Positions 7,637-30,943 of a stretch of DNA of 64,000 bases are shown piece after piece. Source of the stretch: Mycolicibacterium diernhoferi (GTDB lineage: Bacteria; Actinomycetota; Actinomycetes; Mycobacteriales; Mycobacteriaceae); assembly GCF_019456655.1 (NCBI RefSeq), contig NZ_CP080332.1, forward strand, positions 558,001-622,000, written 5' to 3'. Below the pieces are notes generated by a model. That model searched no databases. It saw only the letters and a program-made list of their open reading frames with translations, and had not been told where the DNA came from. Both the position numbers and the translations under genes were made by a program. The first letter of the stretch is position 1, and each line of letters starts with the position of its first letter.

Positions 7637-7867
7637 CCGACGATGATGCCCGCCCGCCCCCGACACGCCCGAATCGCGGACCGGGGTCTGTGGGCGAATC
7701 CACACCTGCCCTCGTGAGCACCGCCACATCGAGGGCGCGTTGTGCGGTGAATGTGACGGAAGGTTACAGCGAAAAATCTGCCCGATTTGATAGCTGGCTT
7801 GTGCATCCCGAATTCGGCACCGTGTGCCGGTACTCATCACCGCACCAACCGAAGGACTCCGACCGCG
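7637..7867. other. Divergent intergenic region (thioesterase / ABC importer)
   Basis: A 231-bp gap holding the promoters of two divergent genes. A perfect dyad CGGCAC-CGT-GTGCCG (7815-7829) lies about 40 nt before the importer start and may be an operator. No convincing -35/-10 pair and no small gene were found. Confidence 0.35.
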
Positions 7868-17129: not shown

Positions 17130-18482
17130 ATGACTTCCGACAACAGCGGCAATCCGCGCCGCGCCGTCGACTCCGTGATGGAGCGACTGGACACCTATGG
17201 CATCGGGCGCCGGCAGTTCGTGAAACTGCTGGCCGGTAGCACCGCCGCGCTGGCCGGTGTCGGCGCGCTGTCCGCGGTGGGACGCCGCGATGCGGCCCGT
17301 GGCGGTGCCGTCGCCTACACCGACGGTCAGTTCGCGCTGCTGAACTGGTCTTCCACCGGCGACTACCAGGTGCAGTGGGGGCGAGCGTTCCAGGACGCGG
17401 CCGGCCAGCTCGGCTACAAGAGCGTGGTGCTCGACGGCAAGAACGATGCGGCCGTGCAGTCCAACCAGTTCAACCAGCTGCTCACCCAGAAGACCACCGC
17501 CATCTTCGTCGGCCTCAACGACGCCGGCGCGCTACCGACGCTTGCGCACGACGCCAACGAGAACGGCGTGCTGTTCCAGGCGGCCTGGAACTCGCCGGCC
17601 TGGTACACCCCCTGGCACAGCGACGTCGACGGCGACAAGTACACCACCTTCCTGATGCCCGACGAGTACGTGTCGGTGGGCAAGGCCGTGGACGTGCTGG
17701 CCCGCAAGATCGGGGAGGAGGGCACGATCGTCCGGGTCGGCGGCTACTACCCGTCCATCGACGGTTGCGAGGTGCAGCGCCGGCTCGCAGTCCACGAAAC
17801 CCTGAAGAAATACCCGAAGATCAAGTTCGCGGGGGAACTGCACGCCAAATACGACGCCGACCTGTCCCAGCGTGCGGCCGCGTCCCTGCTGGCGCGGTTC
17901 CCCGACACCCGCGGCATCGTCGCGGTCAACGACGACGCCGCCACCGGTGTGGTGGCCGGTATCGAGGCGGCCGGCAAGGTGCCCGGTAAGGACGTCTTCG
18001 TGGTGGGCGCCAACGGATCCACCGCAGGAATCGACCGGATCGTCAAGGGCACCCAGCTCGCCACCACCGGCAACGTGCCGGCCTACCCGTCCTTCTTCAC
18101 CCTGGCCCAGTTCCACGACCGGCTACAGGGCTGGAAACCCGAAGCGGCCGAACGGTTCTACGGCTGGCACGCCGAGATCATCACCGCGGAGAACGTGCAC
18201 AAGTTCAAGACCCGCTTCGTCGACGGGCCGATCGCCGAGTCCTTCGACGTGCGGCTGCTCTCGCGCACCCTGCACCCGACCGACTTCGACCTGCAGTTCG
18301 ACGGCTACCCGGTCGAGGACCTGGAGACCATCTGGCCGGGGGTGCCCAAACCGGCGGGCTTCGAATACCCCGAGGCCTATCTGAATGCTCAGCGCAACGG
18401 CGATTTCGACCGGATCCGCGCGCTCTACAAGCAGCACTACCGGACCCCGGTGCTGGGTCCCTCCCCGTACAGGAAGGTCTGA
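17130..18482 (+). CDS. ABC importer substrate-binding protein (ribose/periplasmic-binding type) with Tat signal
   Basis: A 450-aa type I periplasmic binding protein (Peripla_BP_4-like). The N-terminus carries a twin-arginine signal, IGRRQFVKLLAG followed by STAALAGVGALSAVG, so it is probably exported folded. The mature protein has the alternating pattern of the RbsB/LsrB group: LNWSSTGDYQVQWGRAF, a cue for ligand binding in IFVGLNDAGALPTL, GIVAVNDDAATGVVAGIE, and DVFVVGANGSTAGID. It is the first gene of an importer whose ATPase and permease follow. Despite the sugar-type family, the downstream flavin monooxygenase suggests a non-sugar ligand; this is inference. Confidence 0.88.
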   Translation: MTSDNSGNPRRAVDSVMERLDTYGIGRRQFVKLLAGSTAALAGVGALSAVGRRDAARGGAVAYTDGQFALLNWSSTGDYQVQWGRAFQDAAGQLGYKSVVLDGKNDAAVQSNQFNQLLTQKTTAIFVGLNDAGALPTLAHDANENGVLFQAAWNSPAWYTPWHSDVDGDKYTTFLMPDEYVSVGKAVDVLARKIGEEGTIVRVGGYYPSIDGCEVQRRLAVHETLKKYPKIKFAGELHAKYDADLSQRAAASLLARFPDTRGIVAVNDDAATGVVAGIEAAGKVPGKDVFVVGANGSTAGIDRIVKGTQLATTGNVPAYPSFFTLAQFHDRLQGWKPEAAERFYGWHAEIITAENVHKFKTRFVDGPIAESFDVRLLSRTLHPTDFDLQFDGYPVEDLETIWPGVPKPAGFEYPEAYLNAQRNGDFDRIRALYKQHYRTPVLGPSPYRKV

Positions 18483-18483
18483 C

Positions 18484-20097
18484 ATGACGGTGTTGGAAGA
18501 AGAGGCGGTGGCACACGAGCCGGTTCGGGCCGAGCCCCGGCTGCAGGCCCACGACATCGTCAAGACCTTCGGCGCCAACCGGGCGCTCAAGGGCGTCGAC
18601 CTGACCGTCGGCGACGGCGAGGTCGTCGGCCTGATCGGGGAGAACGGCGCCGGTAAGAGCACCATCCTCAACATCGTCTCCGGGGTGCTGCCGTTCGACT
18701 CGGGCACCCTGCAACTCGACGGCCGCGACATCGCCCCGAAGTCCTACCAGGAAGCCAACAAACTGGGCATCTTCCGGGTGTTCCAGGAGGCGAACCTGGT
18801 GGACACCCTGCCCGTCTACCAGAACGTGTTCTTCGGCTGGGAGCACCTGTTCCGCACCCGGCTCGGTGGACTGGACCACCGGGCACTGCGCAGGGCGGCC
18901 AGCACGGCGCTGGAATCCGCCGGGGTGGACGGCGTGGACGTGTCCGCCCCGACCGGCGTGCTGGCCCCCGGGCAGAAGCAGAGCCTGGACATCGCCCGGG
19001 TCACCGCACTGGCCGACCTGCTGGAGGTCGAACGCCCGGTGGTGTTGTTCGACGAACCGACCACCGCACTGGACTCCGAGCACGAGGACAATTTCCTGCT
19101 GCTGCTCAAACGCCTGCGCGGTGTCGCGGCCGTCGTCTTCGTCTCGCACCGGCTGCCCGAGATCATCGAAACCACCGACCGGATCACCGTTTTCAAAGAC
19201 GGTGAATCGGTCGCCGACCGGCCCACCCAGGGCACCGACGAGAGTGAACTGCACCGGTTGATGGTGGGCCGGCTGCGCACCGAGAACTACTACCGTGAGC
19301 ACGCCCAGGTCGAGATCGCCGCGCAGACCCCGCCCCGGCTGGTGGTCGAGTCCGTCGCCGGTGCGGGCGTGCTCCGGGAGGCCTCGCTGGCGGTGGCGCC
19401 CGGTGAGATCCTCGGCCTGGCCGGCACCGAGGGCTCCGGGAAGCGGGTGCTGGGCGAGATCGTCGCCGGCGCGGTCCGCGCCACCGCGGGCCGGGTGCTG
19501 CTCGACGGGCAGGAGGTCACCGGTGACATCGGCGAGCACGTCCGTGCCGGCATCGCCTACGTACCCCCGGACCGCTCCGAGAAGGGTCTGGTCACCTCGT
19601 CCTCGATCGTCGACAACATCCAATTGGCGTCGCTGCACGATCTTTTCGCCACCCGCCGGGTCGGGCTGTGGGCGGTCGGGCGGGCCCGCAAGGTCGCCGA
19701 CCAGTACGTCGACGAACTCGGCATCGTCACCCAGGGCATCGACGCACCCGTGTCCTCGCTGTCCGGCGGCAACGCGCAGAAGGTGCTGATCGCCAAATGG
19801 CTGCTGCGCAAACCAGATGTGCTGGTCCTCGACGAACCCACCCAGGGCGTGGACACCGGCGCCCGCGAAGGCATCTACGACCTGCTCCGCAAGGTCGCCG
19901 CCGAGGGCACCGCGATCGTCCTGGTCAGCGATGACCTTCCCGAACTCATCGGCCTGTCCAACCGGATCGCCGTCGTCACCGAGGGCCGCCTGGTGGCCAC
20001 CGTCGACGCACCGGCCGGGGCCAAACCCGATGAACACGATCTCGTCGCGCTGATGATCCCCGGCACCACTTCCCCCGTACCCACCACCACTGGATGA
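18484..20097 (+). CDS. ABC importer dual ATPase, RbsA/MglA type
   Basis: A 537-aa sugar-type double ATPase, starting 1 nt after the binding-protein stop region. Domain 1 has a good Walker A (GENGAGKST, about 53-61) and Walker B (PVVLFDEPTTALD) but an odd signature, LAPGQKQSLDI, where LSxGQ is usual. Domain 2 has the family's expected degenerate Walker A (GTEGSGKRV) but a good signature (LSGGNAQKVLIAKWL) and Walker B (VLVLDEPTQGVD). One active site is therefore probably built from domain 1 Walker A/B and the domain 2 signature. The frame continues upstream without family resemblance; ATG 18484 is chosen for context. Confidence 0.9.
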   Translation: MTVLEEEAVAHEPVRAEPRLQAHDIVKTFGANRALKGVDLTVGDGEVVGLIGENGAGKSTILNIVSGVLPFDSGTLQLDGRDIAPKSYQEANKLGIFRVFQEANLVDTLPVYQNVFFGWEHLFRTRLGGLDHRALRRAASTALESAGVDGVDVSAPTGVLAPGQKQSLDIARVTALADLLEVERPVVLFDEPTTALDSEHEDNFLLLLKRLRGVAAVVFVSHRLPEIIETTDRITVFKDGESVADRPTQGTDESELHRLMVGRLRTENYYREHAQVEIAAQTPPRLVVESVAGAGVLREASLAVAPGEILGLAGTEGSGKRVLGEIVAGAVRATAGRVLLDGQEVTGDIGEHVRAGIAYVPPDRSEKGLVTSSSIVDNIQLASLHDLFATRRVGLWAVGRARKVADQYVDELGIVTQGIDAPVSSLSGGNAQKVLIAKWLLRKPDVLVLDEPTQGVDTGAREGIYDLLRKVAAEGTAIVLVSDDLPELIGLSNRIAVVTEGRLVATVDAPAGAKPDEHDLVALMIPGTTSPVPTTTG

Positions 20098-20101
20098 GGC
20101 C

Positions 20102-21124
20102 ATGACCACTGAATTGACGCTTCCCGCACCCACTCCCGACGCACCCGCCGAGCGCCCCACGCCCCGCGGCTCGCTGTTCGGCCGGCTCAACGTGGTGCGT
20201 GACCTGCTCCCACTGGCCGCTCTGCTGGCGCTGTTCGTGTTCTTCTCGGTACGTGCCGAGGCGTTCCTGTCCGCGGCGAACCTCACCCTGATCAGCGGGC
20301 AGGCCGGCATCCTGCTGCTCGCCTCGCTGGGGGCGACGCTGGTGATCATCGCCGGCAGCGTCGACCTGTCCGTCGGCTCCATCGCCCTGCTCACCGGGGC
20401 GGTGGTGGCCCTGTCGATCAACAACGGCTTCGGCAACCCGATCGTGGTGCTGCTCATCGCGATTGCGGTGGGCGCGCTGATCGGGCTGGTCAACGGGGTG
20501 GTGTTCGCCTACGGCCGGGTGCCGTCGTTCATCGCCACCCTGGGCACCCTGTCGCTGTTCGCCGGTATCGGGCTGTCCATCCTGCAGGGCAGCACCATCA
20601 ACTTCACCAACCAGGCCGTCCGCGACCTTGCCATCGGCCAGTTCATCCCGAATGTGCAGAACGCCGCGCTGATCGCGCTGGCCGCCTTCCTGGTGGTGTG
20701 GTTCTTCGCGCGGCGCACCCGGCTTGGCCTGTACGTCTACGCGGTCGGCGGCAATGAGCGGGTGGTCGACCTGGCCGGTGTGCGCACCCGCCGGGTGAAG
20801 GTGCTGATCCTGATCCTGTCCGGTATCACCGCCGGGCTGGCCGGGCTGCTGCTGACCGCCCAATTGGGCGCCGCCGGGCCGTCATTGGGGTCGACCATCC
20901 TGCTGGATTCGATCGCCGCGATCGTGATCGGCGGGACCGCGCTGTCCGGCGGTGTCGGCGGAGTCGGGCGCACCGTGCTGGGCGTGCTGATCCTGACGGT
21001 ACTGTCCAACGGGCTCAACCAGATCGGCGCCGCCGACTACACCCAGACCATCATCAAGGGTCTGGTGATCATCGTGGCGGCGGTCTTCACGATGGCCTCC
21101 CAGCGCAAGCTGATCGTCAAATAG
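20102..21124 (+). CDS. ABC importer permease, RbsC type
   Basis: A 340-aa permease of the branched-chain/ribose family (BPD_transp_2) with roughly eight to ten transmembrane helices. Landmarks are the early LPLAALLALFVFFSVRAEAFL helix, GSVDLSVGSIALL, GRVPSFIATLGTLSLFAGIG, VYAVGGNERVVDLAGVR and TALSGGVGGVGRTVLGVLIL. It starts 4 nt after the ATPase stop, and the next gene (LLM oxidoreductase) starts 1 nt after its own stop, so importer and enzyme are one operon. Confidence 0.92.
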   Translation: MTTELTLPAPTPDAPAERPTPRGSLFGRLNVVRDLLPLAALLALFVFFSVRAEAFLSAANLTLISGQAGILLLASLGATLVIIAGSVDLSVGSIALLTGAVVALSINNGFGNPIVVLLIAIAVGALIGLVNGVVFAYGRVPSFIATLGTLSLFAGIGLSILQGSTINFTNQAVRDLAIGQFIPNVQNAALIALAAFLVVWFFARRTRLGLYVYAVGGNERVVDLAGVRTRRVKVLILILSGITAGLAGLLLTAQLGAAGPSLGSTILLDSIAAIVIGGTALSGGVGGVGRTVLGVLILTVLSNGLNQIGAADYTQTIIKGLVIIVAAVFTMASQRKLIVK

Positions 21125-21125
21125 C

Positions 21126-22175
21126 ATGAGCGGGCCACGATTCGGAGTCTGGGCACTGGAGGAGGGCTGCTTCGGCTCTCCCCATCACCCCGAGGACCCG
21201 CACGACGCCCGCTGGGAGCGGGTGCGGGATCAGGTGTTGCTCGCCGAGGAGCTGGGCTACGACAGCACCCTGATCGCGCAACTGTTCATCAGCCCGTTCG
21301 GAGAGGACTACGACCAGGGTGAGGCCTGGTCGCTGGCGGCCGCGCTGGCGGCACTGACCAGCCGGATCGAGCTGATCGCCGCGGTCAAACCGTATTCCTA
21401 CCCGCCCGGGGTGCTGGCCAAGATGGCCCTGCAGATCGAGGAGATCAGCGGCGGCCGCTTCGCCGTCAACCTGGTCAACGGCTGGTTCGCCACCGAGGCC
21501 CGTCGACTCGGGTTGACCTTCGGCGACCGGGACGAGCGGTACGCCTATGGGCGGGAATGGATCACGATCGTCCGTGAGTTGCTGACCGGTGGCCCGTCGA
21601 CATTCCAGGGCCGGTGGTTTCGCACCGACGGTTACCGACCCCGGCCGGTGTCCCGGTGGCGGGACCGGCCGAAGATCTACAGCGGAGGCGAGTCGGAACC
21701 GGCCCGGGCGCTGGCCGCCGACGCCTGTGACGCCTGGTTCATCAACGGCCAACCGCTCGAGCGGGTCGCGGCGCTGATCGAGGATGTGCGGGCCCGCCCG
21801 CGGATCGGCCCGCCGGTCGAGTTCGGGATGGCGGCGTTCGTCATCGCCCGCGACACCGACGCCGAGGCCGCCGACGCGCTGGCCTACGCCTGGGAGATCA
21901 GCAAGCGCGACCGCCTCGAGCAGGAATGGATCAGCGGGCAGGTCGCCCCCGACGTGCAGATGTTCAAGACGTTCGAGGAGTTCCCGCACATCGGCACCAA
22001 CGGCGGTACCGCGGCCGGCCTGGTCGGCAGCTACGACACCGTCGCCCGGCGGGTCGAGGAATTCCACGACGCCGGCATCGACCTGTTCATGCTGCAGTTC
22101 CAGCCCTTCGAGGCCGAGATGAGCCGGTTCGCCGAGCACGTCCTGTGCCGGGTCAAAGGCCGCGTACGCGCCTAG
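21126..22175 (+). CDS. LLM-class flavin oxidoreductase, SsuD/SfnG-like
   Basis: A 349-aa bacterial-luciferase-like protein resembling alkanesulfonate and dimethylsulfone monooxygenases (SsuD, SfnG). Landmarks are FGVWALEEGCFGSP, AEELGYDSTLIAQLF, the barrel strand RIELIAAVKPYSYPPGVLAKMALQIEEISGGRFAVNLVNGW (split), FGDRDERYAYGREWI and KIYSGGESEPARALAA. It is expected to use FMNH2 and O2, or F420. It is coupled to the RbsC-type permease by a 1-nt gap. The import-plus-oxygenation pairing repeats the logic of the first importer operon. Confidence 0.85.
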   Translation: MSGPRFGVWALEEGCFGSPHHPEDPHDARWERVRDQVLLAEELGYDSTLIAQLFISPFGEDYDQGEAWSLAAALAALTSRIELIAAVKPYSYPPGVLAKMALQIEEISGGRFAVNLVNGWFATEARRLGLTFGDRDERYAYGREWITIVRELLTGGPSTFQGRWFRTDGYRPRPVSRWRDRPKIYSGGESEPARALAADACDAWFINGQPLERVAALIEDVRARPRIGPPVEFGMAAFVIARDTDAEAADALAYAWEISKRDRLEQEWISGQVAPDVQMFKTFEEFPHIGTNGGTAAGLVGSYDTVARRVEEFHDAGIDLFMLQFQPFEAEMSRFAEHVLCRVKGRVRA

Positions 22176-22185
22176 GATCGAGTAC
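22173..22185 (+). promoter_or_regulatory. Possible leaderless -10 for the PNPOx-like gene
   Basis: TAGGAT (22173-22178) overlaps the LLM stop codon and is 7 nt before ATG 22186. It may give the small downstream gene its own transcript in addition to read-through from the importer operon. Confidence 0.35.
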
Positions 22186-22644
22186 ATGGCCCGTCACTAC
22201 GCGACCGCAGACCAGGTCTCCCTCGATGAGCTGCTGGAGTTCGTCCGCCCGCGGCACCGGATGGTGCTCACCACCTTCCGCGCGGATGGGTCGCTGCAGA
22301 GTTCCCCGGTCACCGGCGGGGTCGATGACCAGGGCCGACTGGTCATCGCGAGCTATCCGCAGCGCGCCAAATCGGTGAACATCGGCCGCACCGCGCGGGC
22401 CAGCGTGACGGTCCTCTCCGACGAGTTCAACGGCCCCTACGTCCAGATCGACGGCGAGGCCGAACGCATCGACCTGCCCGATGCGGTGGAACCGCTGGTG
22501 GACTATTTCCGCGCGGTCGCCGGGGAGCACCCGGACTGGGACGAGTACCGCCAGGCGATGATCGATCAACGGAAGTGCCTGCTGCGCATCACCCCTCGCA
22601 GCTGGGGACCCGTTGCCGCCGGCGGCTTCCCGCCACCGGCCTAG
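22186..22644 (+). CDS. Pyridoxamine 5'-phosphate oxidase-fold protein (F420/FMN-dependent type)
   Basis: A 152-aa split-barrel flavin-binding protein of the PPOX class that is greatly expanded in mycobacteria, many members of which use F420. Landmarks are FVRPRHRMVLTTFRADGSLQSSPV, VIASYPQRAKSVNIGRTARASVTVL and the C-terminal YRQAMIDQRKCLLRITP. It may be a redox partner or a detoxifying reductase; the partner for the LLM monooxygenases is otherwise missing from this region, but nothing proves that role. Its stop overlaps that of the convergent thioesterase gene. Confidence 0.85.
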   Translation: MARHYATADQVSLDELLEFVRPRHRMVLTTFRADGSLQSSPVTGGVDDQGRLVIASYPQRAKSVNIGRTARASVTVLSDEFNGPYVQIDGEAERIDLPDAVEPLVDYFRAVAGEHPDWDEYRQAMIDQRKCLLRITPRSWGPVAAGGFPPPA

Positions 22645-23462
22645 GACGGACGGGCGTACTTGCCCTTCGGATCGAAATTGGCGTTGCTGATCGCGGTGGA
22701 CAGACCGGTGCCGATCGGCCCGAGGTGATCGAACAGCTCGGAGGATCCGGTGGCCACACCGTCGGCGCTGGTGTGGGTCAGTGCCGCGAGTGCGATGTAG
22801 GGCCCGTCCGGCAGCCGGCTCAGCGCCAGCGTGTAGTCGGCGTTGATGAACGCCAGTCCGGCGGTGCTGAAGTTGGTCATCGAACTGGTGACATCGACGG
22901 CCATCGCCGCCCGGATGAACGGAGTCAGCTCCTCGCCGTCCACCAGATCCCGGAACTCGCGGATCCATGCGTACCGGGGACCTGCCTGCTGCCAAGGAAA
23001 TTCGAGGCCGTTGGAGTCGCCGGTCGGGCCGTAGGCGCGGATGAACATCGGTATCGCTTCGTCGATCTGCTCGGGCTCCTCCGGTATCGGCGGAAGGTCG
23101 ACCGGGGTGCTCCAGAACTCGCCGTCGGGCTGGGTGCTGCGGCGCAGGTAGAGCGCCGACGCCCGGGCGACCAGCGCCCCGCCCTGGGTCATGGCCGCAT
23201 CGACCGACCGCATCCGGGCGCCGGCGCGCACCACAGTGGCACTGACCTGCAGAGGTTCGGTCGCCACCCGGCGCAGGATCTCCACCGTCAGCCGGGCCGG
23301 CTGCAGGGTGGTGTCTTCCACCTGGGCCTCGATGGCGCGGGCGAGCAGTCCGCCGACCACCTGGCCGCCGAGGGTCGGTCCCCATCCGCCGTGCGCGATC
23401 GGATTGGGAACCAGGTCCGCACCGTACTGAACCACGAACGGCGTCGCAGTGCTGAGCGTCAT
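22641..23462 (-). CDS. Acyl-CoA thioesterase-like double-hotdog protein
   Basis: A 273-aa thioesterase of the TesB-like mycobacterial family: NPIAHGGWGPTLGGQVVGGLLARAIE in the first hotdog (split), and ALTHTSADGVATGSSELFDHLGPIGTG in the second. I start at ATG 23462, preceded by GGAAG; an upstream extension reads like non-coding sequence. It should cleave or bind acyl-CoA thioesters. It is convergent with the PNPOx-like gene (stops overlap) and stands apart from the nitrilase cluster upstream, with its own promoter/operator region at 23508-23533. Confidence 0.82.
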   Translation of the reverse strand: MTLSTATPFVVQYGADLVPNPIAHGGWGPTLGGQVVGGLLARAIEAQVEDTTLQPARLTVEILRRVATEPLQVSATVVRAGARMRSVDAAMTQGGALVARASALYLRRSTQPDGEFWSTPVDLPPIPEEPEQIDEAIPMFIRAYGPTGDSNGLEFPWQQAGPRYAWIREFRDLVDGEELTPFIRAAMAVDVTSSMTNFSTAGLAFINADYTLALSRLPDGPYIALAALTHTSADGVATGSSELFDHLGPIGTGLSTAISNANFDPKGKYARPS

Positions 23463-23507
23463 GGGCTTCCTTTCGCGGGCGCCCCGCGCGCCGACCACGT
23501 CGACGTT

Positions 23508-23534: not shown

Positions 23535-24614
23535 TCAGGACCGGGGTTTGCGACCGTGTTCCCGGTAGAAGTCCACATGCGCCCGAGCCGCATCTGCCCA
23601 CGTCATCGACAGTGCGAGAGCCCGTCCCGGGCCGGGGTCACCGGGATCGGTGAGGGCGTCACCGAGCTCGGCGGCGAATCCGGTCACGTCCGCCGCATAG
23701 CGCACGGTCGGCCCGAAGACCTCGCGCAACACGGGCAGATCACGCGCGACGACGGGGCGGCCGGCGGCCAGCGCCTCCAGGGCCGCCAACCCGAAACCCT
23801 CCTTGGTCGACGGGAACGCGAACACCTCGCAGTCCTTGACCAGTCCGGGCAGGTCGTCGTCGGCGACCGCGCCGAGGATGATCGGGGCGATATCCAGTTC
23901 CCGGCAGCGTGCCTCGAAGGCGCTGCGATAGTCGCGGTAGTCGAACAGGGTCTCTCCGCCGGCGATGACCAGCGCCAGATCCGGGCATGTCCGTCGCAGC
24001 AGTCGATACGCCTCGAGCAGGTCGAGGGTGCCCTTACGGGGTTCGATTCCGCCGACGGTCAGCAGGTACCGTCCCAGCCGTCCGCGCCACTGTCCGTGAG
24101 TTGCATCGATGAATCGCTGGGCATCAACACCATTGGGGATCACGGTCGGTTCGAACCCCCAACCGGCCCGCACCTCGGCGGCGACCGCCGCCGACACGCA
24201 GATCCGCGCGTACGGTTCGACGATCGCCTTTTCGTGGCATTCGGCGAGGATCGGCGTGGTGAACTCGTCGAGGTGGTGGATGGTGCGGATGCAGTCTCCG
24301 ACCGCGTTGGCGCTGATGCAGTCCTGCGCGTGCACGATGTCGTAATCGCCCGGCGTGAACGCTCGCCCCAACACCTCGATCGAGCGGACGATGCGGTCGG
24401 TGACGGTGTCCCCGTCGTGATCGACGAACTCCACCAACTTCACCGTCACCGCCGGATCCACCGTCCGGAAGAACCCCCGGTCACCCGCGCGGGCCAGCGA
24501 CCACACCGTGACCTCGGCACCCGCAGCGGCCAGCGCCTCGGCCAGGTTCAGGGTGTGCACCACCCCGCCGCGCGGTTTGGTCGAATAGGTCAGCAAGGCG
24601 ATCCGCAGGCTCAT
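23535..24614 (-). CDS. Glycosyltransferase family 4-type, MSMEG_0565 family
   Basis: A 359-aa GT-B glycosyltransferase: TYSTKPRGGVVHTLNLAEAL at the acceptor-side N-terminus, IVHAQDCISANAVG in the middle, and the donor-site GFGLAALEALAAGRPVVARDLPVL with its conserved E-x7-E. It starts by ATGA overlap with the nitrilase-like gene and is last in the nitrogen-starvation cluster. A homologue closes the same cluster in M. smegmatis. Why a glycosyltransferase belongs with nitrilases is unknown; modification of a nitrile-derived or peptide-like metabolite is one idea. Confidence 0.88.
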   Translation of the reverse strand: MSLRIALLTYSTKPRGGVVHTLNLAEALAAAGAEVTVWSLARAGDRGFFRTVDPAVTVKLVEFVDHDGDTVTDRIVRSIEVLGRAFTPGDYDIVHAQDCISANAVGDCIRTIHHLDEFTTPILAECHEKAIVEPYARICVSAAVAAEVRAGWGFEPTVIPNGVDAQRFIDATHGQWRGRLGRYLLTVGGIEPRKGTLDLLEAYRLLRRTCPDLALVIAGGETLFDYRDYRSAFEARCRELDIAPIILGAVADDDLPGLVKDCEVFAFPSTKEGFGLAALEALAAGRPVVARDLPVLREVFGPTVRYAADVTGFAAELGDALTDPGDPGPGRALALSMTWADAARAHVDFYREHGRKPRS

Positions 24615-25456
24615 CCGCGCTCCGATCCGGCCCGATACAGGTCCGGGCGCAGCTCGTCGAGGTGATTGAGAACCTTTCGGGCCCTTGCGATCTCGGACTC
24701 GACATCGATCTCGGCCTGGGCCAGCCCGCCCTTGGCCCCGGTATTGGCCAGGATGTCACCGCCGGGCCCGACGATCTTGGCCTGGCCGAGGAACCGCAAC
24801 CTGCCCATCACGCCGGTCTGGTTCGAGGAGACCAGCACCACCTGGTTCTCCGCGGCGCGGGCGCAGTCGTACAAGTCGAACAGCCGGGACTGCCGGTCGG
24901 CCGGCAGCCGGGAGGCCCGGTCGGTGATGCTGGCCGGCCAGGCCGACAGTGCGGCGACGATGTGGGCACCGTCGAGTGCCAGTGTCCGGGCGGCTTCCGG
25001 GAATGTCTTGTCGTAGTCGATGAGCATCCCGACCCGACCGACCGGGGTGTCGAAGCTACTGAACCGGTCACCGGCCAGATAGGTCAGGGCCTCCCCGGCG
25101 GGCTGGTGGACCTTGCGGTATCTGCCCAGAACACCGTCACCGGACACACAGACGGCCGCGTTGTAGCGGCTACCGCCGGCGGCCTCCTCGGCATAGCCCA
25201 CGCAGACGGTCATGGCGCCCGCCGCCGCGATCACCGCACCGATCTCCGGACCGTCGGGGTCCAGCGCGGGCGGCGGACCGGTGGGGTCGGGGGCGGTGAA
25301 ATCGCCGATGTAGCCACCCAGACAGGCATCCGGCAGTACCAACAGGTCGACACCGTCTCGCGCGGCGGACTCGATGATGCCGACGACCTTGGATACGCCG
25401 CGGTCGACGTCACGGCCGAAGTGCGCCGCGACCGCGCCCAGCCTGACCGGTGCCAT
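24611..25456 (-). CDS. Nitrilase-family paralogue lacking catalytic Cys (predicted pseudoenzyme)
   Basis: A 281-aa carbon-nitrogen hydrolase-fold protein. In the nitrilase superfamily the triad is Glu, Lys, Cys. Here the Lys is kept (YRKVHQ, Lys115), but the Glu position reads LPDA (Asp43 instead of Glu) and the nucleophile position reads LIDYDK (Asp147 instead of Cys). The intact paralogue at 29509 has LPEA and QICYDK at the same places, so the loss is clear by internal alignment. The rest is well conserved (HQPAGE, TFPEAARTLALDGAH), arguing against simple decay. It may be a non-catalytic subunit of a nitrilase filament or a ligand-binding protein. GGGGAG precedes ATG 25456. Confidence 0.9.
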   Translation of the reverse strand: MAPVRLGAVAAHFGRDVDRGVSKVVGIIESAARDGVDLLVLPDACLGGYIGDFTAPDPTGPPPALDPDGPEIGAVIAAAGAMTVCVGYAEEAAGGSRYNAAVCVSGDGVLGRYRKVHQPAGEALTYLAGDRFSSFDTPVGRVGMLIDYDKTFPEAARTLALDGAHIVAALSAWPASITDRASRLPADRQSRLFDLYDCARAAENQVVLVSSNQTGVMGRLRFLGQAKIVGPGGDILANTGAKGGLAQAEIDVESEIARARKVLNHLDELRPDLYRAGSERG

Positions 25457-25465
25457 GCGCTCCCC

Positions 25466-26884
25466 TCAGGCCGGTCCGATACCGGTGACCGAGGCCGTCA
25501 ACACGGTCGTCGTCACCCCGTCCGGCCAGCGTAGGCGCACCCCGGGCGTGGCCGTCAACGACCCGCAGTCCGCGTCGGCGACACCGGGCGGCAGGCCCGG
25601 TGCACGCCGGGTCCGGCCGGCGGTCAGCATGGCGTAGCCGGGGAAGCAGGTCAGCCACTGGCCGGCAGAGGCACCGGCGGGGCGGGGGATGTCCGCGACG
25701 GCCAGTTCGGCACCGACCCCACTGGCCTCGGCCAGCATGCCCAAGGTGCCCACCACACCGGCCATGCTGACGTCCTTGGCGGCGCGAGGCCGCAGTTCGG
25801 CGACCAACCCGGCCATCGCGGCCAGATCCGTCGCGGAGCGGGCACTGGTGCAATCCCATTGCTTGCCGGTGTATCCGGGCCGCCAGCCGCCGGTGAGGTC
25901 GGCGGTGAGCCGGACTCGGTCCCCGGCCCGCCCGCCGCCGGCCGGCACCGGATCGGCGGTGCGCCCGAGTGCGGTGACCGCCAGCGCGGCCGGCACCCCG
26001 AGCTGGGTGTGGCCGCCGAGCACCGGGACCCGCCAGGCGGCCGATGCCGCCGTGATACCGCGGACGACGCGGTCCAGGATGGGCCGCGTCGGCGCACCGA
26101 CCGCGTCCAGCAGTCCGATCGGCCGGGCGCCCATCGCGGTCAGGTCGTTGATGTTGACCAGCACCGAGCACCAGCCCGCCCACTCCGGATCACGTTCGAC
26201 CATCGACGGGATGATGGCGTCGCAGGCCGCGACCACGTCGGTACCCGGGACCGGGGCACCGTCATCGCCGACGAAACCGGCCGGGCCGAGTCCGCCGCGG
26301 ATCGCCCGCAGCGGTGCCAGGGTGTCCCCGAGAAAGGATTTGGTGGCGGCGGCAAGCCCGACGAACGGGTTGATCGGGTACCGCATCCGGGTGTGCGAGC
26401 GGCCGGCGATCATCTTTTCGCCCAACGGTTTCCAGTTGAGATCGCTGAACACCCGGACATATCGGGTCTGTACGTCGGCCTCGAAGCGCAGCACCCCGGC
26501 CGACTCGACGTGCGCGCAGGCCGCCCGGATCAACGCCGGCCCGACGCCGCTGGATCGGGCGGCCCGGGTGGTGACCAGTCGGCTGCCGGTCCACCACCCG
26601 ATGTCCACCGCGCCGACCGGGGCGAGCCGCACCCCGCCCAGCACGGTGCCGTCGGGCCCGCGAGCCACCAGCACCACGGTGCGCGGGTCGTCATCGATCT
26701 CATCGGCGTCGGACCCGGCGAACAGCGCCTGCTCGCGCACGAACTCCGCCGTGCGCAGCCGGCGGTAGTCGGCCAGGTCGGCGCCGCAGGCCGGCTCGAT
26801 CAGAAACGGCGGAGTCGGCCGGGTACCGGCCAGGATGGACAGATCCTCTGGCGAAGACGGAGTGCTGGAGTCGAAGTGGATCAT
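25466..26884 (-). CDS. GNAT acetyltransferase fused to AIR synthase-like domain (NitE-NitF type)
   Basis: A 472-aa two-domain protein. Residues about 30-175 form a GNAT acyltransferase (YRRLRTAEFVREQALF, RAARSSGVGPALIRAA, RVFSDLNWKPLGEKM). Residues about 185-472 form a PurM/AIR synthase-like ATP-binding domain (GDDGAPVP, VNINDLTAMGARPIGLLDAVG, VLGGHTQLG, AKDVSMAGVVGTLGMLAE). In several bacteria these are separate neighbouring genes of the nitrilase cluster; here they are one chain. I start at ATG 26884, which forms ATGA with the radical SAM stop. The chemistry is unproven; an acyl transfer and an ATP-dependent step on the same intermediate are implied. Confidence 0.88.
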   Translation of the reverse strand: MIHFDSSTPSSPEDLSILAGTRPTPPFLIEPACGADLADYRRLRTAEFVREQALFAGSDADEIDDDPRTVVLVARGPDGTVLGGVRLAPVGAVDIGWWTGSRLVTTRAARSSGVGPALIRAACAHVESAGVLRFEADVQTRYVRVFSDLNWKPLGEKMIAGRSHTRMRYPINPFVGLAAATKSFLGDTLAPLRAIRGGLGPAGFVGDDGAPVPGTDVVAACDAIIPSMVERDPEWAGWCSVLVNINDLTAMGARPIGLLDAVGAPTRPILDRVVRGITAASAAWRVPVLGGHTQLGVPAALAVTALGRTADPVPAGGGRAGDRVRLTADLTGGWRPGYTGKQWDCTSARSATDLAAMAGLVAELRPRAAKDVSMAGVVGTLGMLAEASGVGAELAVADIPRPAGASAGQWLTCFPGYAMLTAGRTRRAPGLPPGVADADCGSLTATPGVRLRWPDGVTTTVLTASVTGIGPA

Positions 26885-27942
26885 CAGGCACCCAGCCCCT
26901 GCAGCACCGAGCAGGCCCCGCAGGCCGCGCATCCGGCCCGCTGGTCGGTGCCGGCCATCCCGGCCATCGCGAGTTTCGCGGCGACCTCACGGGACACCTT
27001 CTCCACCGCCGCGGCCGACGGGGCGGGGGCGGCATCGATCTCGACGGCCAGCGAGCCGGGCTGCGGGCGATAGGGCACCACGAACGGGTACACCCCCATG
27101 TCGATCAGTTCGGACGCGCCGGCGATCAGCTCGTCCTGGTCCTCCCCGAGGCCCACCAGCAGATAGGTCGACACCTGATTACGGCCGAACACCCGGACCG
27201 CTTCGCGCCACGCCGCCCGGTACTGCTCCAGCGGTACCGTCGCCTTCCCGGGCATCCACCGGCGGCGCACCCGGTCGTCGAGGGATTCCACGTGGATACC
27301 GATCGCGTCGGCGCCTGCGGAGCGCAACTCGCCGATGACCGCCAGATCGGCGGGCGGTTCACACTGGACCTGGACCGCAAGACCGGGCTCGGCCTCCTTG
27401 ACGGCCTGCACGCATCGGATCAGATGCCTTGCGCCACGGTCGGATCCAGCAGAGGTCCCGGTGGTCATCACCATCTGCCGCACGCCGTCCAGCCGTACCG
27501 CGGCCGCGGCCACCTCGGCGAGTTCGGCCGGCCGCTTCACCGCGGTGGTGGCCCCCGAGCGCAGGGATTCCTCGATCGTGCAGAACCGGCAGCGTTGATC
27601 GGGTGCGTACCGGATGCAGGTCTGCACCACCGTGGTGGCCAGCACGTCGCGGCCGTGCAGCCGGGCCAGTTTCTCGTACGGGACGCCCTCGGCGGTGCAC
27701 AGGTCGTAGAACTTCGGCCGGTCGATGACCTCGACGTCCAGTCCGGTGTCCACGCCGTCGAGCAGCACCCGGGTGCCGTCGAACACGAACGGGCTGGTGG
27801 CATTTCGCGGGATCGCGGCGTTGAGGCCGTCGATGACGAGGTGCCCGTCCGCGCTGGGGCCGGCCCCGGAGGTGCGGCTGACCGGCGGCTCACCGCGGAA
27901 ACCCGACAGTGCGAGGTCGACCCTGGTGGATACGCTCATCAT
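26884..27942 (-). CDS. Radical SAM protein of the nitrilase cluster (MSMEG_0568/NitD-type)
   Basis: A 352-aa radical SAM protein. The cluster-binding cysteines are spaced C-x8-C-x2-C (CIRYAPDQRCRFC), an unusual expansion of the classical Cx3Cx2C loop. The barrel continues with MVMTTGTSAGSDRG and VQCEPPADL, and there is a second Cys group at the C-terminus (CAACGAC) that may hold an auxiliary cluster. Two in-frame ATGs lie at 27942 and 27939, preceded by GGGGCC. It is co-translated with the GNAT-AIR gene. Homologues accompany the nitrilase in Nit1C clusters linked to cyanide assimilation in pseudomonads; the reaction is not established. Confidence 0.9.
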   Translation of the reverse strand: MMSVSTRVDLALSGFRGEPPVSRTSGAGPSADGHLVIDGLNAAIPRNATSPFVFDGTRVLLDGVDTGLDVEVIDRPKFYDLCTAEGVPYEKLARLHGRDVLATTVVQTCIRYAPDQRCRFCTIEESLRSGATTAVKRPAELAEVAAAAVRLDGVRQMVMTTGTSAGSDRGARHLIRCVQAVKEAEPGLAVQVQCEPPADLAVIGELRSAGADAIGIHVESLDDRVRRRWMPGKATVPLEQYRAAWREAVRVFGRNQVSTYLLVGLGEDQDELIAGASELIDMGVYPFVVPYRPQPGSLAVEIDAAPAPSAAAVEKVSREVAAKLAMAGMAGTDQRAGCAACGACSVLQGLGA

Positions 27943-27948
27943 GGCCCC

Positions 27949-29223
27949 TTAGCTGGCAGACGCGGTGACGGAGTGGAATGTCTTGTGGTCGACGATGATC
28001 GCGTCCGCGATGTGCCGCGCGTCGCGGTCTATTCCGAGGAACCGGCCCGAGCCCCAGGTGTGCATCCAGGGCAGGCCGACGAAGCTGAGCCCGGGTACGG
28101 TGGTGATGCCGCGGGTCTGCATGGGGCGTCCGGACCCGTCGAAGGCGCTGGCCTCGATCCACCGGTAGTCCGGCCGGTAGCCGATGGCCCACAACACGCT
28201 GGTGACGCCTGCAGCCCGCAGATCCAGTGTGCTGGTTTCTGTCTCGGGATGCCAGACCGGTTCGTAGCGCGATGCCGGCGGTGCCGGGATGCCCTCGCGT
28301 TCGATGTGGGCGTCGATGTCTGCGCAGATCGAGTTGTACACCGCGTCGGCGTGGTCCAGTGCGGCGGTCAGGGTGGGCGCGAACCGCAGGGTGTGGTCCT
28401 TGCCGTCGGTCAGCGTCCCGTAGAGCTGCATGCCTTCGAGGGCGAACTGGCGCAGGTCCACGTCGCGGCCGCCGTCGCGTCCGGTGACGTAATGGTTGGT
28501 CTTCTCGATGGCAGCCTGGCCGCCCGGATACTGCGCGGCCGGCCGATCGTACAGTCCCATCTCGTGCAGCCAGGTCATGCAGTCCCGGCCGCGGTAGGTG
28601 CGCGCGACCCGGGGTGCCCCGCCGACGGCCAGGTGCACGGTGCGTCCGCTCAGGTGCAGGTCCTCGGCGATCTGCGCGCCGGACTGCCCGCTGCCCACCA
28701 CCAGCACCGCGCCGTCGGGTAGCTGGTCGGCATTGCGGTACTGCTCGGAATGCAATTGGTGCACAGAGGGATCCAGCGACCGGGCCCAGGGTGGGGTGAT
28801 CGGCAGCGGATAGCCGCCGGTGGCGACGACGGCGTGGTCGCAGATGACGGTCTGGGTACCGGTCGCGGTCTGCACCGTCAGTTCGAAACCACCGCCGGGA
28901 TGGTTGGCCAGCCGGCTGACCCGGCTGTGCGTCCGGACCGGCGGATCGAAGGTCCGCAACCAGCCGGCGAGCCAGTCGACGACCTCATCGCGGGTCATGA
29001 AGCCGTCCGGGTCCGGCCCGTCGTAGGCGTAGCCGGGAAGCCGGCAGTGCCAGTTGGGGGTGACCAGGGTGAAGTTGTCCCACCGGGTGTCGAACCAGGC
29101 GTGTGCCGGGGTTGCGGCCTCCAGGACGACGTGGTCGATACCGGCGCGGCCGAGATACCAGCTGACCGACAGGCCGGCCTGACCGCCCCCGATGACGACG
29201 ACGGGAATGACGGTGGTGGTCAT
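27949..29223 (-). CDS. FAD-dependent oxidoreductase of the nitrilase cluster (MSMEG_0569/NitH-type)
   Basis: A 424-aa flavoprotein: FAD-binding VVVIGGGQAGLSVSWYL at the N-terminus, VVATGGYPLP, then a second Rossmann motif VVGSGQSGAQIAEDL, and VLWAIGYRPDYRW near the C-terminus. This is the layout of flavin N-/C-monooxygenases. I start at ATG 29223, which overlaps the stop of the small gene upstream (ATGA); the frame further upstream lies inside that gene. It may oxidise an intermediate using NADPH and O2. A conserved member of the cluster. Confidence 0.9.
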   Translation of the reverse strand: MTTTVIPVVVIGGGQAGLSVSWYLGRAGIDHVVLEAATPAHAWFDTRWDNFTLVTPNWHCRLPGYAYDGPDPDGFMTRDEVVDWLAGWLRTFDPPVRTHSRVSRLANHPGGGFELTVQTATGTQTVICDHAVVATGGYPLPITPPWARSLDPSVHQLHSEQYRNADQLPDGAVLVVGSGQSGAQIAEDLHLSGRTVHLAVGGAPRVARTYRGRDCMTWLHEMGLYDRPAAQYPGGQAAIEKTNHYVTGRDGGRDVDLRQFALEGMQLYGTLTDGKDHTLRFAPTLTAALDHADAVYNSICADIDAHIEREGIPAPPASRYEPVWHPETETSTLDLRAAGVTSVLWAIGYRPDYRWIEASAFDGSGRPMQTRGITTVPGLSFVGLPWMHTWGSGRFLGIDRDARHIADAIIVDHKTFHSVTASAS

Positions 29224-29516
29224 GACTGCTCCAGTTGCGGGTGCATCGCGGTGATCTCGATCAACGCATCGGATGGGTAAGCCGCTGCGGCGTGGGTGAT
29301 CCCCTCCTTCGTCGCGGCCGCCGAGGTGCAGGCGAAGCCGAACCGGGCCCGTACCCGCTCGCTCGCCTCGGCCATGGCACGCCCGACGCGGTCGACGAAG
29401 TCGTCGACCCGGTAGCGTCCACCGGTGGCCAGGTAGTCGTGCACGACCAGGCTGGGGGAGTAGCAACGCTGGGTGCTGCCGTCCGGCCAGCGGACCTCGA
29501 AGGTCATCTCAGGCAT
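29220..29516 (-). CDS. Small nitrogen-starvation-response protein, MSMEG_0570 family
   Basis: A 98-aa protein of unknown function that is a regular member of this cluster: MPEMTFEVRWPDGSTQRCYS at the N-terminus and RVRARFGFACTSAAATKEGI in the second half, with two cysteines. It starts inside the nitrilase end (8-bp overlap) and overlaps the flavoprotein start by 4 bp. ATG 29507 (Met4) is an alternative start. The small acidic-basic mix and lack of signal or membrane segment suggest a cytoplasmic accessory or substrate-carrier protein, but no function can be assigned. Confidence 0.82.
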   Translation of the reverse strand: MPEMTFEVRWPDGSTQRCYSPSLVVHDYLATGGRYRVDDFVDRVGRAMAEASERVRARFGFACTSAAATKEGITHAAAAYPSDALIEITAMHPQLEQS

Positions 29517-30411
29517 GAGCCGGTGCCTTCCACCCGGCCTCGTGGAAGGCGGTCGGGGCGGTCAGCGGTCCGTACACATCGGGCCGGCGGTCGCGCAGGT
29601 GGAACATGCCGGCCCGGGTGGTGCGGAAGGTGGCGTCCAGGTCGACCTCGGCGACCGCCATGCCGCTGTCCAGAAGAGTTGTGGCCAGGATGTTTCCACC
29701 TGGATCGACGATCTTGGCGTTGCCGACGTAGCGCAGCGACCCGAAAGTGCCGCTCTGGTTGGACGAGACCCAGAACACCTGGTTGTCCAGCGCGCGGGCG
29801 GTGTCGAACAGGTTGAACCGGTAGGTCCAGCGGTCGTCCTGCAGATTCTGCGCGGTGGCAGTCCGGGCTGCCGGCCAGGCTGACAGGCTCGCGATGATCT
29901 GCGCGCCGTCCAGCGCCATCAGGCGGGCCGCCTCCGGGAAGGCCTTGTCGTAACAGATTTGCAGGCCGACCCGGCCGACCGGGGTATCGAACACCCCGTA
30001 CCGGGAGCCCGCGGAGTACGACATCGACTCGCCGAGTGGCTGGTGCACCTTGCGGTAGGTGCCGTACACCTGAGTGCCGTCCAGGATGGCGGCGGAGTTG
30101 TAGCGGGTCTCTCCGTCGTCGGCCAGTTCGCAGAATCCGATCGCGACTGTCAGATCACCGATGATCTGCTGCACCCGGGCGATCTCCGGGCCGTCGAGCC
30201 GAATAGCCGGGGGCAGCGACTTTTTGGTGGTCCTGACGGTGTCGCCGTGGTTGCCCAGTGAGGACAGGTAGCCACCGATGGCGGCCTCGGGCAGCACGAG
30301 GAAATGCACGCCCGCGGCGCGGGCCCGCTCGGTGAGCGTGGTGATCAGCGTGTAATTCTGTTCGAGGTCCCGGGTGAAGTTCGCCGAGACGGCGGCCAGT
30401 GTGGTCGTCAT
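29509..30411 (-). CDS. Nitrilase with intact catalytic triad (NitC-type)
   Basis: A 300-aa nitrilase-superfamily hydrolase with complete catalytic residues: Glu42 (LPEAAIGGY), Lys121 (TYRKVHQPLGE) and Cys153 (QICYDKAFPE). It should hydrolyse a nitrile, or possibly cyanide, to acid plus ammonia, providing nitrogen. It belongs with the Nit1C cluster nitrilases; work in Pseudomonas fluorescens linked that cluster to growth on cyanide as nitrogen source (recalled, not checked). It is the second gene of the operon and overlaps the 98-aa gene by 8 bp. Its dead paralogue sits five genes downstream. Confidence 0.92.
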   Translation of the reverse strand: MTTTLAAVSANFTRDLEQNYTLITTLTERARAAGVHFLVLPEAAIGGYLSSLGNHGDTVRTTKKSLPPAIRLDGPEIARVQQIIGDLTVAIGFCELADDGETRYNSAAILDGTQVYGTYRKVHQPLGESMSYSAGSRYGVFDTPVGRVGLQICYDKAFPEAARLMALDGAQIIASLSAWPAARTATAQNLQDDRWTYRFNLFDTARALDNQVFWVSSNQSGTFGSLRYVGNAKIVDPGGNILATTLLDSGMAVAEVDLDATFRTTRAGMFHLRDRRPDVYGPLTAPTAFHEAGWKAPAHA

Positions 30412-30421
30412 GGTCGCGTCC

Positions 30422-30943
30422 CTAGACCATATAGGTGGAATTGATGATGGCGCCCTTGCGGGCGTAGTAGATCAGCGCGTCCTGGACGTCGAGCGGATGG
30501 GCCGGGATGACACCCTCGATCAGGTCCTCTTCACGTCCGCCGTGCAGGCCGAGTCCGAACCGGCAGCAGAACACGGTGCCGCCTTCCTTGATGAACGTGG
30601 TCAACGCATCGTTGATGTTCTGCTCGCCGGGGAAACCGGAGTCTCCGGTGGTCGGAAAACCTCGGGTGGCAAGGCAATTGATGGATCCAGGACCGTAGAA
30701 GTAGAGCGCGGACTCGAATCCTTTGCGCAGCGCGCGGGTGGCCTGTAGGACGGCGACGAACGATACCGAGGACTCGTGTGCGATCCCGTGCACCAGGGTG
30801 AAGTAACTCTCGCCCTCCTGGGCCTGGTAGTCGGGGAAGATCTTGGTCCCACCGTAGATGCTGGTGCCCTTGGGCAGTGCGGGATGCGGGATCTCGGCCA
30901 ACGATGCGGTGATGTTCTCGGCGATGGACGAGTCAAAAGGCAT
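30422..30943 (-). CDS. Nitrogen-starvation-response protein, MSMEG_0572/Sll0783 family
   Basis: A 173-aa protein, first gene of the nitrilase cluster. ATG 30943 is chosen because GGAG lies upstream; a TTG at 30994 would add an unlikely extension. Recognisable segments are FTLVHGIAHESSVSFVAVLQATRAL, SALYFYGPGSINCLATRGFP and FCCRFGLGLHGGREEDLI (with a Cys-Cys pair). The family resembles DsrE-like small proteins in length and in having conserved cysteines; I do not assign a reaction. Homologues in cyanobacteria are induced by nitrogen limitation. The divergent LysR gene may control it. Confidence 0.82.
   Translation of the reverse strand: MPFDSSIAENITASLAEIPHPALPKGTSIYGGTKIFPDYQAQEGESYFTLVHGIAHESSVSFVAVLQATRALRKGFESALYFYGPGSINCLATRGFPTTGDSGFPGEQNINDALTTFIKEGGTVFCCRFGLGLHGGREEDLIEGVIPAHPLDVQDALIYYARKGAIINSTYMV

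Follow-up and report, generated by a model that had tools for sequence, protein, structure and literature searches.

A conserved nitrilase paralogue with aspartate in place of the catalytic cysteine in the gpr-type gene cluster of Mycolicibacterium diernhoferi

Gene content of the locus

The 64,000-nucleotide stretch of Mycolicibacterium diernhoferi analysed here (NZ_CP080332.1, positions 558,001 to 622,000; hereafter the window) comes from a genome of 6.0 Mb in a single contig and contains a cluster with two paralogous genes of the nitrilase fold, designated A and B. The subject of this study is A, in which an aspartate occupies the position of the nucleophilic cysteine and which, judged from its active-site residues, has very probably given up the canonical cysteine mechanism. 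The cluster runs on the minus strand from 30943 to 23535 and, as identified with family models, consists of p572, B, p570, a flavoprotein, a radical SAM protein, a fusion of GNAT and AIR-synthase-like domains, A and a glycosyltransferase (GT), with neighbouring genes overlapping or separated by at most 10 bases (Table 1). The tight embedding of A described in the first-pass annotation was borne out, as its stop codon shares the bases ATGA with the start of the GT gene and 9 bases separate it from its upstream gene.

Table 1. Features of the gene cluster and active-site codons of A (positions in the window)
Feature	Position	Strand	Evidence or remark
GT, glycosyltransferase, MSMEG_0565 family	23535..24614	-	TIGR04047 449.1 bits, cut-off 259.85; 4-base overlap with the stop of A
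A, Asp-type nitrilase-fold paralogue, MSMEG_0566-like by position, 281 amino acids	24611..25456	-	PF00795, BLASTP
Asp147 of A, nucleophile position, codon GAC	25016..25018	-	Aligned to Cys153 of B
Glu122 of A, second conserved Glu, codon GAG	25091..25093	-	Codon read directly
Lys115 of A, retained catalytic-type Lys, codon AAG	25112..25114	-	Codon read directly
Asp43 of A, general-base position, codon GAT	25328..25330	-	Codon read directly
GNAT and AIR-synthase-like fusion	25466..26884	-	TIGR04045 and TIGR04050; ATG start 26884, listed open reading frame to 26932
Radical SAM protein	26884..27942	-	TIGR04043 501.9 bits, cut-off 303.7
Flavin-dependent oxidoreductase (flavoprotein)	27949..29223	-	TIGR04046 638.5 bits, cut-off 498.35; ATG start 29223, listed open reading frame to 29466
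p570, nitrogen starvation response protein	29220..29516	-	TIGR04042 124.3 bits, cut-off 79.85
B, Cys-type paralogue, MSMEG_0571-like by position, 300 amino acids	29509..30411	-	E42, K121 and C153 intact
p572, MSMEG_0572/Sll0783 family, first gene	30422..30943	-	TIGR04044 255.4 bits, cut-off 109.85; ATG start 30943, listed open reading frame to 30994

Active site of A compared with B

Both proteins are carbon-nitrogen hydrolase homologues, with 49% identity over 276 columns in BLASTP and PF00795 scores of 118.7 and 139 bits for A and B, respectively (Pfam gathering score 23.2), and the predicted structure of A is an intact nitrilase fold. The replacements of Cys by Asp and of Glu by Asp, with retention of the Lys, which had been read from short motifs in the first-pass annotation, were reproduced both in the BLASTP alignment and in the codons. 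The corresponding codons of B are GAG (E42), AAG (K121) and TGT (C153), and with this intact Glu, Lys and Cys B is presumed to be the active enzyme. Among the hallmarks of an active nitrilase or amidase, A therefore has the catalytic Lys and lacks both the Cys nucleophile and the general-base Glu.

For comparison, 80 named loci were used, namely those ranking highest among 474 confirmed stretches retrieved with two peptide patterns; the Asp is part of one of these patterns (LIDYDKTF). Of the named loci, those of Mycolicibacterium bacteremicum (95% identity of A) and Mycobacterium aurum (93%) were the closest. The nucleophile codon was GAC in 78 and GAT in 2 of the A genes (n=80), and TGC in 41 and TGT in 29 of the B genes (n=70); two bases distinguish the codons for Cys (TGC/TGT) from those for Asp (GAC/GAT). 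Together with the window, Asp was found in 81/81 A proteins, a count that is biased by the search pattern, and Cys in 71/71 B proteins.

Conservation and single origin of the Asp-type family

A wider set was pooled from matches of at least 240 residues and no weaker than 1e-40 (544 pooled, 495 rows: D 383, C 111, G 1), after which trimmed copies were removed. In the resulting 482 distinct relatives, from which the residue counts given next are taken, the nucleophile position is occupied by D in 372, C in 109 and G in 1; the Asp set is defined by this residue, its status as a clade resting on the 55-row tree described below. Lys115 is kept in 372/372 Asp-type relatives, in which D149, K150, E154, W173, D187, Q189, L192, Y196 and A202 are likewise invariant. 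Position 43, Glu in 109/109 Cys-type relatives, is D in 353, H in 9, G in 7 and Q, N or E in one each of the Asp-type sequences, and position 122 is E in 334 and D in 38 of them. These counts indicate that the nucleophile position and the Lys are fixed as a pair, with both acid positions loosened. Conservation of Asp at both positions, which the first-pass annotation put forward as a check, is thus seen for the nucleophile, which is invariant in the Asp clade, and holds less strictly for position 43. Near-invariant positions number 54 in the Asp set and 34 in the Cys set, a soft comparison since the Cys set is more mixed.

The same picture emerged among the sequences most similar to A, with Asp in 120/120 of the matches listed (best 120 of 3644), and among those most similar to a distant member 59-60% identical to A, likewise with Asp in 120/120 (best 120 of 4066). 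Asp was also found in 49/49 newly fetched loci from class- and order-wide genome searches. A search in genome G488, whose contig L092 is labelled Acidobacteriaceae, returned matches beyond G488 also among the window's own phylum and is no test of another phylum.

In the maximum likelihood tree of 55 rows, calculated with both active-site columns omitted, all 29 Asp rows form one clade (support 94/92) with one state change, and the Cys rows (B and other Actinomycetota families) fall outside it. The root is unsure owing to very long outgroup branches, and the number of changes is independent of it. Replacement of Cys by Asp thus seems to be one old change, requiring two or more base substitutions, at the origin of a family that is distributed across Actinomycetota. 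Intact-Cys orthologues, which would have spoken for a mutation of this strain, were sought and none was found in the Asp clade, so that the description of a conserved paralogue without the canonical Cys was upheld. The stronger label 'catalytically dead' goes beyond what sequence can establish, as Asp-based chemistry is conceivable. Median ratios of non-synonymous to synonymous substitution rates (dN/dS) were 0.10 for A and 0.14 for B, indicating strong purifying selection on A, which is more constrained than B (for p572, 1/10 comparisons was saturated and left out of the median). With an open frame and such a ratio A is not decaying, as had been stated from the window itself. A recent strain-specific mutation is at odds with Asp in 372/482 relatives forming a single clade with one change, and a pseudogene with the open frame, the low dN/dS and an old change common to the class and beyond; a recent loss of function of either kind is accordingly almost certainly the wrong explanation. 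A has lost a catalytic residue and is conserved as a clade in this state, the combination expected of a pseudoenzyme.

Selenocysteine encoded by UGA was considered for A orthologues, as '1 TGA' was flagged in many whole-genome matches of the class and order searches. It was rejected after inspection of L193, L199 and L201, in which the flagged TGA is an ordinary stop that lies at query position 276 of 278-279 and so falls within the end of the match.

Three large genomes of one genus contain orphan relatives (L210, L211 and L212, in G868, G876 and G851, respectively) in which the nucleophile position holds S, C or G and the Lys motif is altered or unaligned, and which look like drifting paralogues. 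Among 72,556 plasmid records, 51 had a match to A at 1e-20, with the nucleophile residue unread: 4 from Rhodococcus at 60-80% identity and 47 below 60%, the 26 listed of the latter being 32-35% identical. The Rhodococcus plasmids (NZ_CP113952.1, NZ_AP026692.1, NZ_CP034156.1 and NZ_CP088909.1; 0.5-1.4 Mb) carry A-like genes about 69% identical to A and suggest that an A-like gene can travel.

Genomic company of A and B

Whole-genome searches with protein A, made without the Asp pattern, detected A in 27/101 genomes of the family, 5/396 of the phylum, 33/394 of the class and 49/298 of the order, corresponding to 98 different genomes, 97 of which have a second match in the score range of B. Both numbers are counts by score range in the match tables; for A the residue was confirmed by reading fetched loci (27, 2 and 49), and for the second match where locus sequence was available. 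Four genomes of the order search do not enter the 98: G990, which is 57% complete and has two partial matches, and G868, G876 and G883, each with a single weaker match.

The named loci show three main gene orders (42, 15 and 7 of 80), in which the block of B, p570 and the flavoprotein (27949-30411 in the window) moves as a unit and the order of p572, radical SAM, GNAT-AIR, A and GT is constant; across L038-L117 the block either follows or precedes p572, or is inserted between GNAT-AIR and A. GT follows A in 80/80 named loci and in 48/49 class and order loci. Rhodococcoides trifolii (L060) and Kitasatospora arboriphila (L100) have neither B nor the flavoprotein next to A, and their B genes were found elsewhere in the genome (G486:C2 and G487:C6). 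In a number of class and order loci, e.g. L171-L176, B and A are direct tandem neighbours.

B genes were divided into B1-type (at least 70% identical to B of the window) and B2-type (below 65%), present in the stretch in 51 and 19 named loci, respectively. Except at positions 190 and 198, helix 187-206 of A does not differ between loci of the two types, while the corresponding helix of B differs between the types in the variants shown (40/51 and 17/19 loci). Related A proteins are accompanied in their genomes by B1 only (L060, L100), B2 only (L096, L110, L111) or both (L069), those of L060 and L110 being 80% identical to each other. Williamsia sp. 1135 (L069; G1238:C55 and C73) has two B-like paralogues on different contigs, 57% (beside A) and 79% identical to B of the window.

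A divergent LysR-family regulator gene (PF00126; 31109-31969, plus strand) adjoins the first cluster gene in the window, and a divergent LysR gene lies near p572 in 5/80 named loci, p572 itself being present in 71/80. Directly downstream of GT lies an acyl-CoA thioesterase-like gene (22641-23498, minus strand), and the region 17130-23498 contains, on the plus strand, a sugar-type ABC transporter, a luciferase-like monooxygenase and a PNPOx-like protein. In one cluster without A (L203), an open reading frame for 517 amino acids that looks FAD-binding (7769-9322) lies between B and GT in place of p570 and the flavoprotein, and a similar-looking one occurs upstream of A in L119.

Relation to known systems

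By its family models, the cluster is of the MSMEG_0565-0572 ('gpr') type of Mycobacterium smegmatis and Nit1C-like; the models shared with M. smegmatis are named after MSMEG_0565, 0567, 0568, 0569, 0570 and 0572, and by cluster position and these models A is almost surely the orthologue of MSMEG_0566. The name gpr stands for GlnR-dependent peroxide resistance, the locus being described as strongly induced by GlnR without nitrogen in M. smegmatis, with a lowered NADPH/NADP ratio upon its loss (PMC6039565). Several gpr genes are reported with raised ratios in two nitrogen transcriptome papers, in one of which GlnR binding is placed upstream of msmeg_0572 (PMC4222082, PMC4617892). A mutant in sll0783, from the related cluster of Synechocystis, is described as having a more oxidised NADPH pool in nitrogen starvation (PMC3901256), and we infer that the phenotypes of the two organisms reflect one pathway.

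The Nit1C cluster has been defined by its subfamily 1 nitrilases (PMC1199592), and nitBCDEFGH of Pseudomonas, a Nit1C cluster, is linked to cyanide assimilation (PMC11049912). Like Nit1C, the present cluster has counterparts of ORF1, radical SAM, GNAT, AIR-like, ORF6 and flavoprotein, with TIGR04044, TIGR04043, TIGR04045, TIGR04050, TIGR04042 and TIGR04046 all above their cut-offs; the separate AIR model TIGR04049 stays below (183.2 vs 321.3 bits). Unlike in Nit1C, GNAT and AIR are fused, GT and an Asp-type paralogue are added, and the nitrilase lies outside the Nit6803 family: against TIGR04048 (cut-off 502.6), with which a subfamily 1 nitrilase was looked for, A and B score 32.6 and 31.1 bits. 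A GT insert in Nit1C is also told for Burkholderia and Rubrivivax (PMC1199592).

With 281 and 300 residues, A and B are shorter than the matched cyanide dihydratases and nitrilases (315-361 residues), among which 8uxu and 9er3 are helical according to their titles. The first-pass suggestion that A might cap or regulate a helical assembly of B was weakened in several ways, as both proteins are short and outside TIGR04048, clusters with B but without A exist, and helix 187-206 of A differs at no more than two positions between loci with a neighbouring B1 and those with a B2; helical capping is the least supported detail of that annotation.

Small carbon-nitrogen hydrolases of known structure, the Pyrococcus PH0642 amidase (1j31, 6ypa) and N-carbamoylputrescine amidase (5h8i), are Cys enzymes, 6ypa being by its title an engineered C146A form, whereas A has Asp by nature. 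The AdoMetDC prozyme of trypanosomes (PMC6221367) is described as a likewise conserved, inactive-looking sister of an active enzyme; unlike in that pairing, A is fixed for one replacement residue and is known here from sequence. In the open-licence literature searched, no report was found of a missing Cys in MSMEG_0566 or of any pseudo-nitrilase. For B, read-through of the UGA of MSMEG_0571 into the flavoprotein, giving a selenoprotein, has been proposed (PMC6039565). B does end in TGA in 70/70 named loci, but a common open frame running from B into the flavoprotein exists in only 25/66, and p570, with a family of its own, lies between the two.

Proposed function of A

We propose that A is an ancient, single-origin paralogue of B that dropped Cys-Glu-Lys hydrolysis and retained the fold and the pocket. 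An invariant carboxylate, Asp147, would replace the thiolate beside the invariant Lys115 and, in most members, a second acid at position 43; that Asp and Lys are invariant together, with the acids loosened, favours a charged binding site. A may then bind a small molecule of the pathway without hydrolysing it, such as the substrate, an amine or ammonium product, or an intermediate handed on between the radical SAM, GNAT/AIR-like and glycosyltransferase steps, and so act as a carrier or sensor subunit. The loss of hydrolysis is the firmer part of this proposal, and ligand binding with a carrier or sensor role the weaker; to a non-hydrolytic small-molecule binding protein with an Asp-Lys pocket in the Nit1C-like (gpr) pathway we would give about an even chance.

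Several observations weigh against this proposal. G513, the lone exception among the 98 genomes, has an Asp-type A (L202, G513:C2:591000-610500; 63% identity) without a second match, and B and every other cluster gene are absent from the fetched 19.5 kb, so that A can stand apart from the pathway. Conversely, 16/49 matching genomes of the class search have a Cys-range match alone; in the 11 of these that were read, the stretch holds Cys in 11/11, GT in 11/11 and an Asp-type gene in 0/11. In the phylum members G217 and G196 (the latter as far as its 11-kb contig reaches), too, the cluster contains one Cys nitrilase and lacks A; each genome has a second Cys-type relative elsewhere, with no cluster gene adjoining that relative. 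Since clusters without A exist, A is dispensable for the core pathway in the hosts concerned. In addition, tandem B-A pairs fit a role as a subunit of B as well, and invariance of the Asp fits a new chemistry as well as it fits binding.

The second of these possibilities, a repurposed enzyme in which Asp147 serves as nucleophile or as metal or general-base ligand in concert with Lys115 and the acidic residues of positions 43 and 122, acting on another substrate, would account for an Asp147, a Lys115 and a pocket surround invariant in 372 sequences, for A-specific residues fixed as in an enzyme (the softly comparable near-invariant positions given above) and for the stronger constraint on A than on B; a pocket with three carboxylates and one Lys could, moreover, accommodate a cation. 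Acceptance of D, H, G, Q, N and E at position 43 and of D at position 122 is nevertheless odd for catalytic groups, and no natural Asp-nucleophile nitrilase was found in the literature searched, which leaves this explanation doubtful, though a real contender. An ordinary active aliphatic amidase is what the annotation of the orthologue implies, MSMEG_0566 being listed as 'aliphatic amidase' in PMC4222082, PMC4617892 and PMC6039565, the last describing it as putative, with a possible role in nitrogen assimilation. A scores 26.9 bits and B 22.8 bits against the aliphatic amidase model PRK13286 (cut-off 427), neither being a member, and in A the Cys nucleophile and the base Glu are both missing, so that this activity is very improbable.

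A regulatory or structural subunit of B, that is, a pseudoenzyme tuning B in a mixed oligomer without a helix, would explain why 97/98 A-bearing genomes have a B-range match and why B is found elsewhere in the genome when it is not beside A (L060, L100), and it agrees with the tandem loci. Helix 188-204 of A, whose equivalent in the nitrilase fold is taken to lie at the dimer face, bears the A-specific residues Q189, L192 and A202. Common membership of a pathway would alone yield such co-occurrence, however, and B occurs without A in the class genomes described above. The helix of A is nearly constant across B types and related A proteins keep mixed B company, which mildly disfavours the view that A is conserved for the sake of a tight interface with B; on balance a subunit of B is rather unlikely.

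Significance for the gpr pathway

The absence of the Cys nucleophile from A corrects the annotation of one of the two 'amidases' of the cluster: A is probably either a binding protein or an enzyme of altered function rather than the amidase of its annotation. A bolder view, offered tentatively and with a probability well below even, is that A represents the first known natural nitrilase-fold family with an Asp-Lys active site, a repurposed enzyme or a cation or amine sensor that became fixed on a single occasion in Actinomycetota and is required for the GlnR and NADPH phenotype of gpr. In a locus for peroxide resistance, the Asp might also mimic a cysteine held permanently in its oxidised, sulfinylated state. 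A would be a clean natural case of either a nitrilase pseudoenzyme or a changed nitrilase mechanism, and the Asp-type A offers a precise handle on the molecule handled by the pathway.
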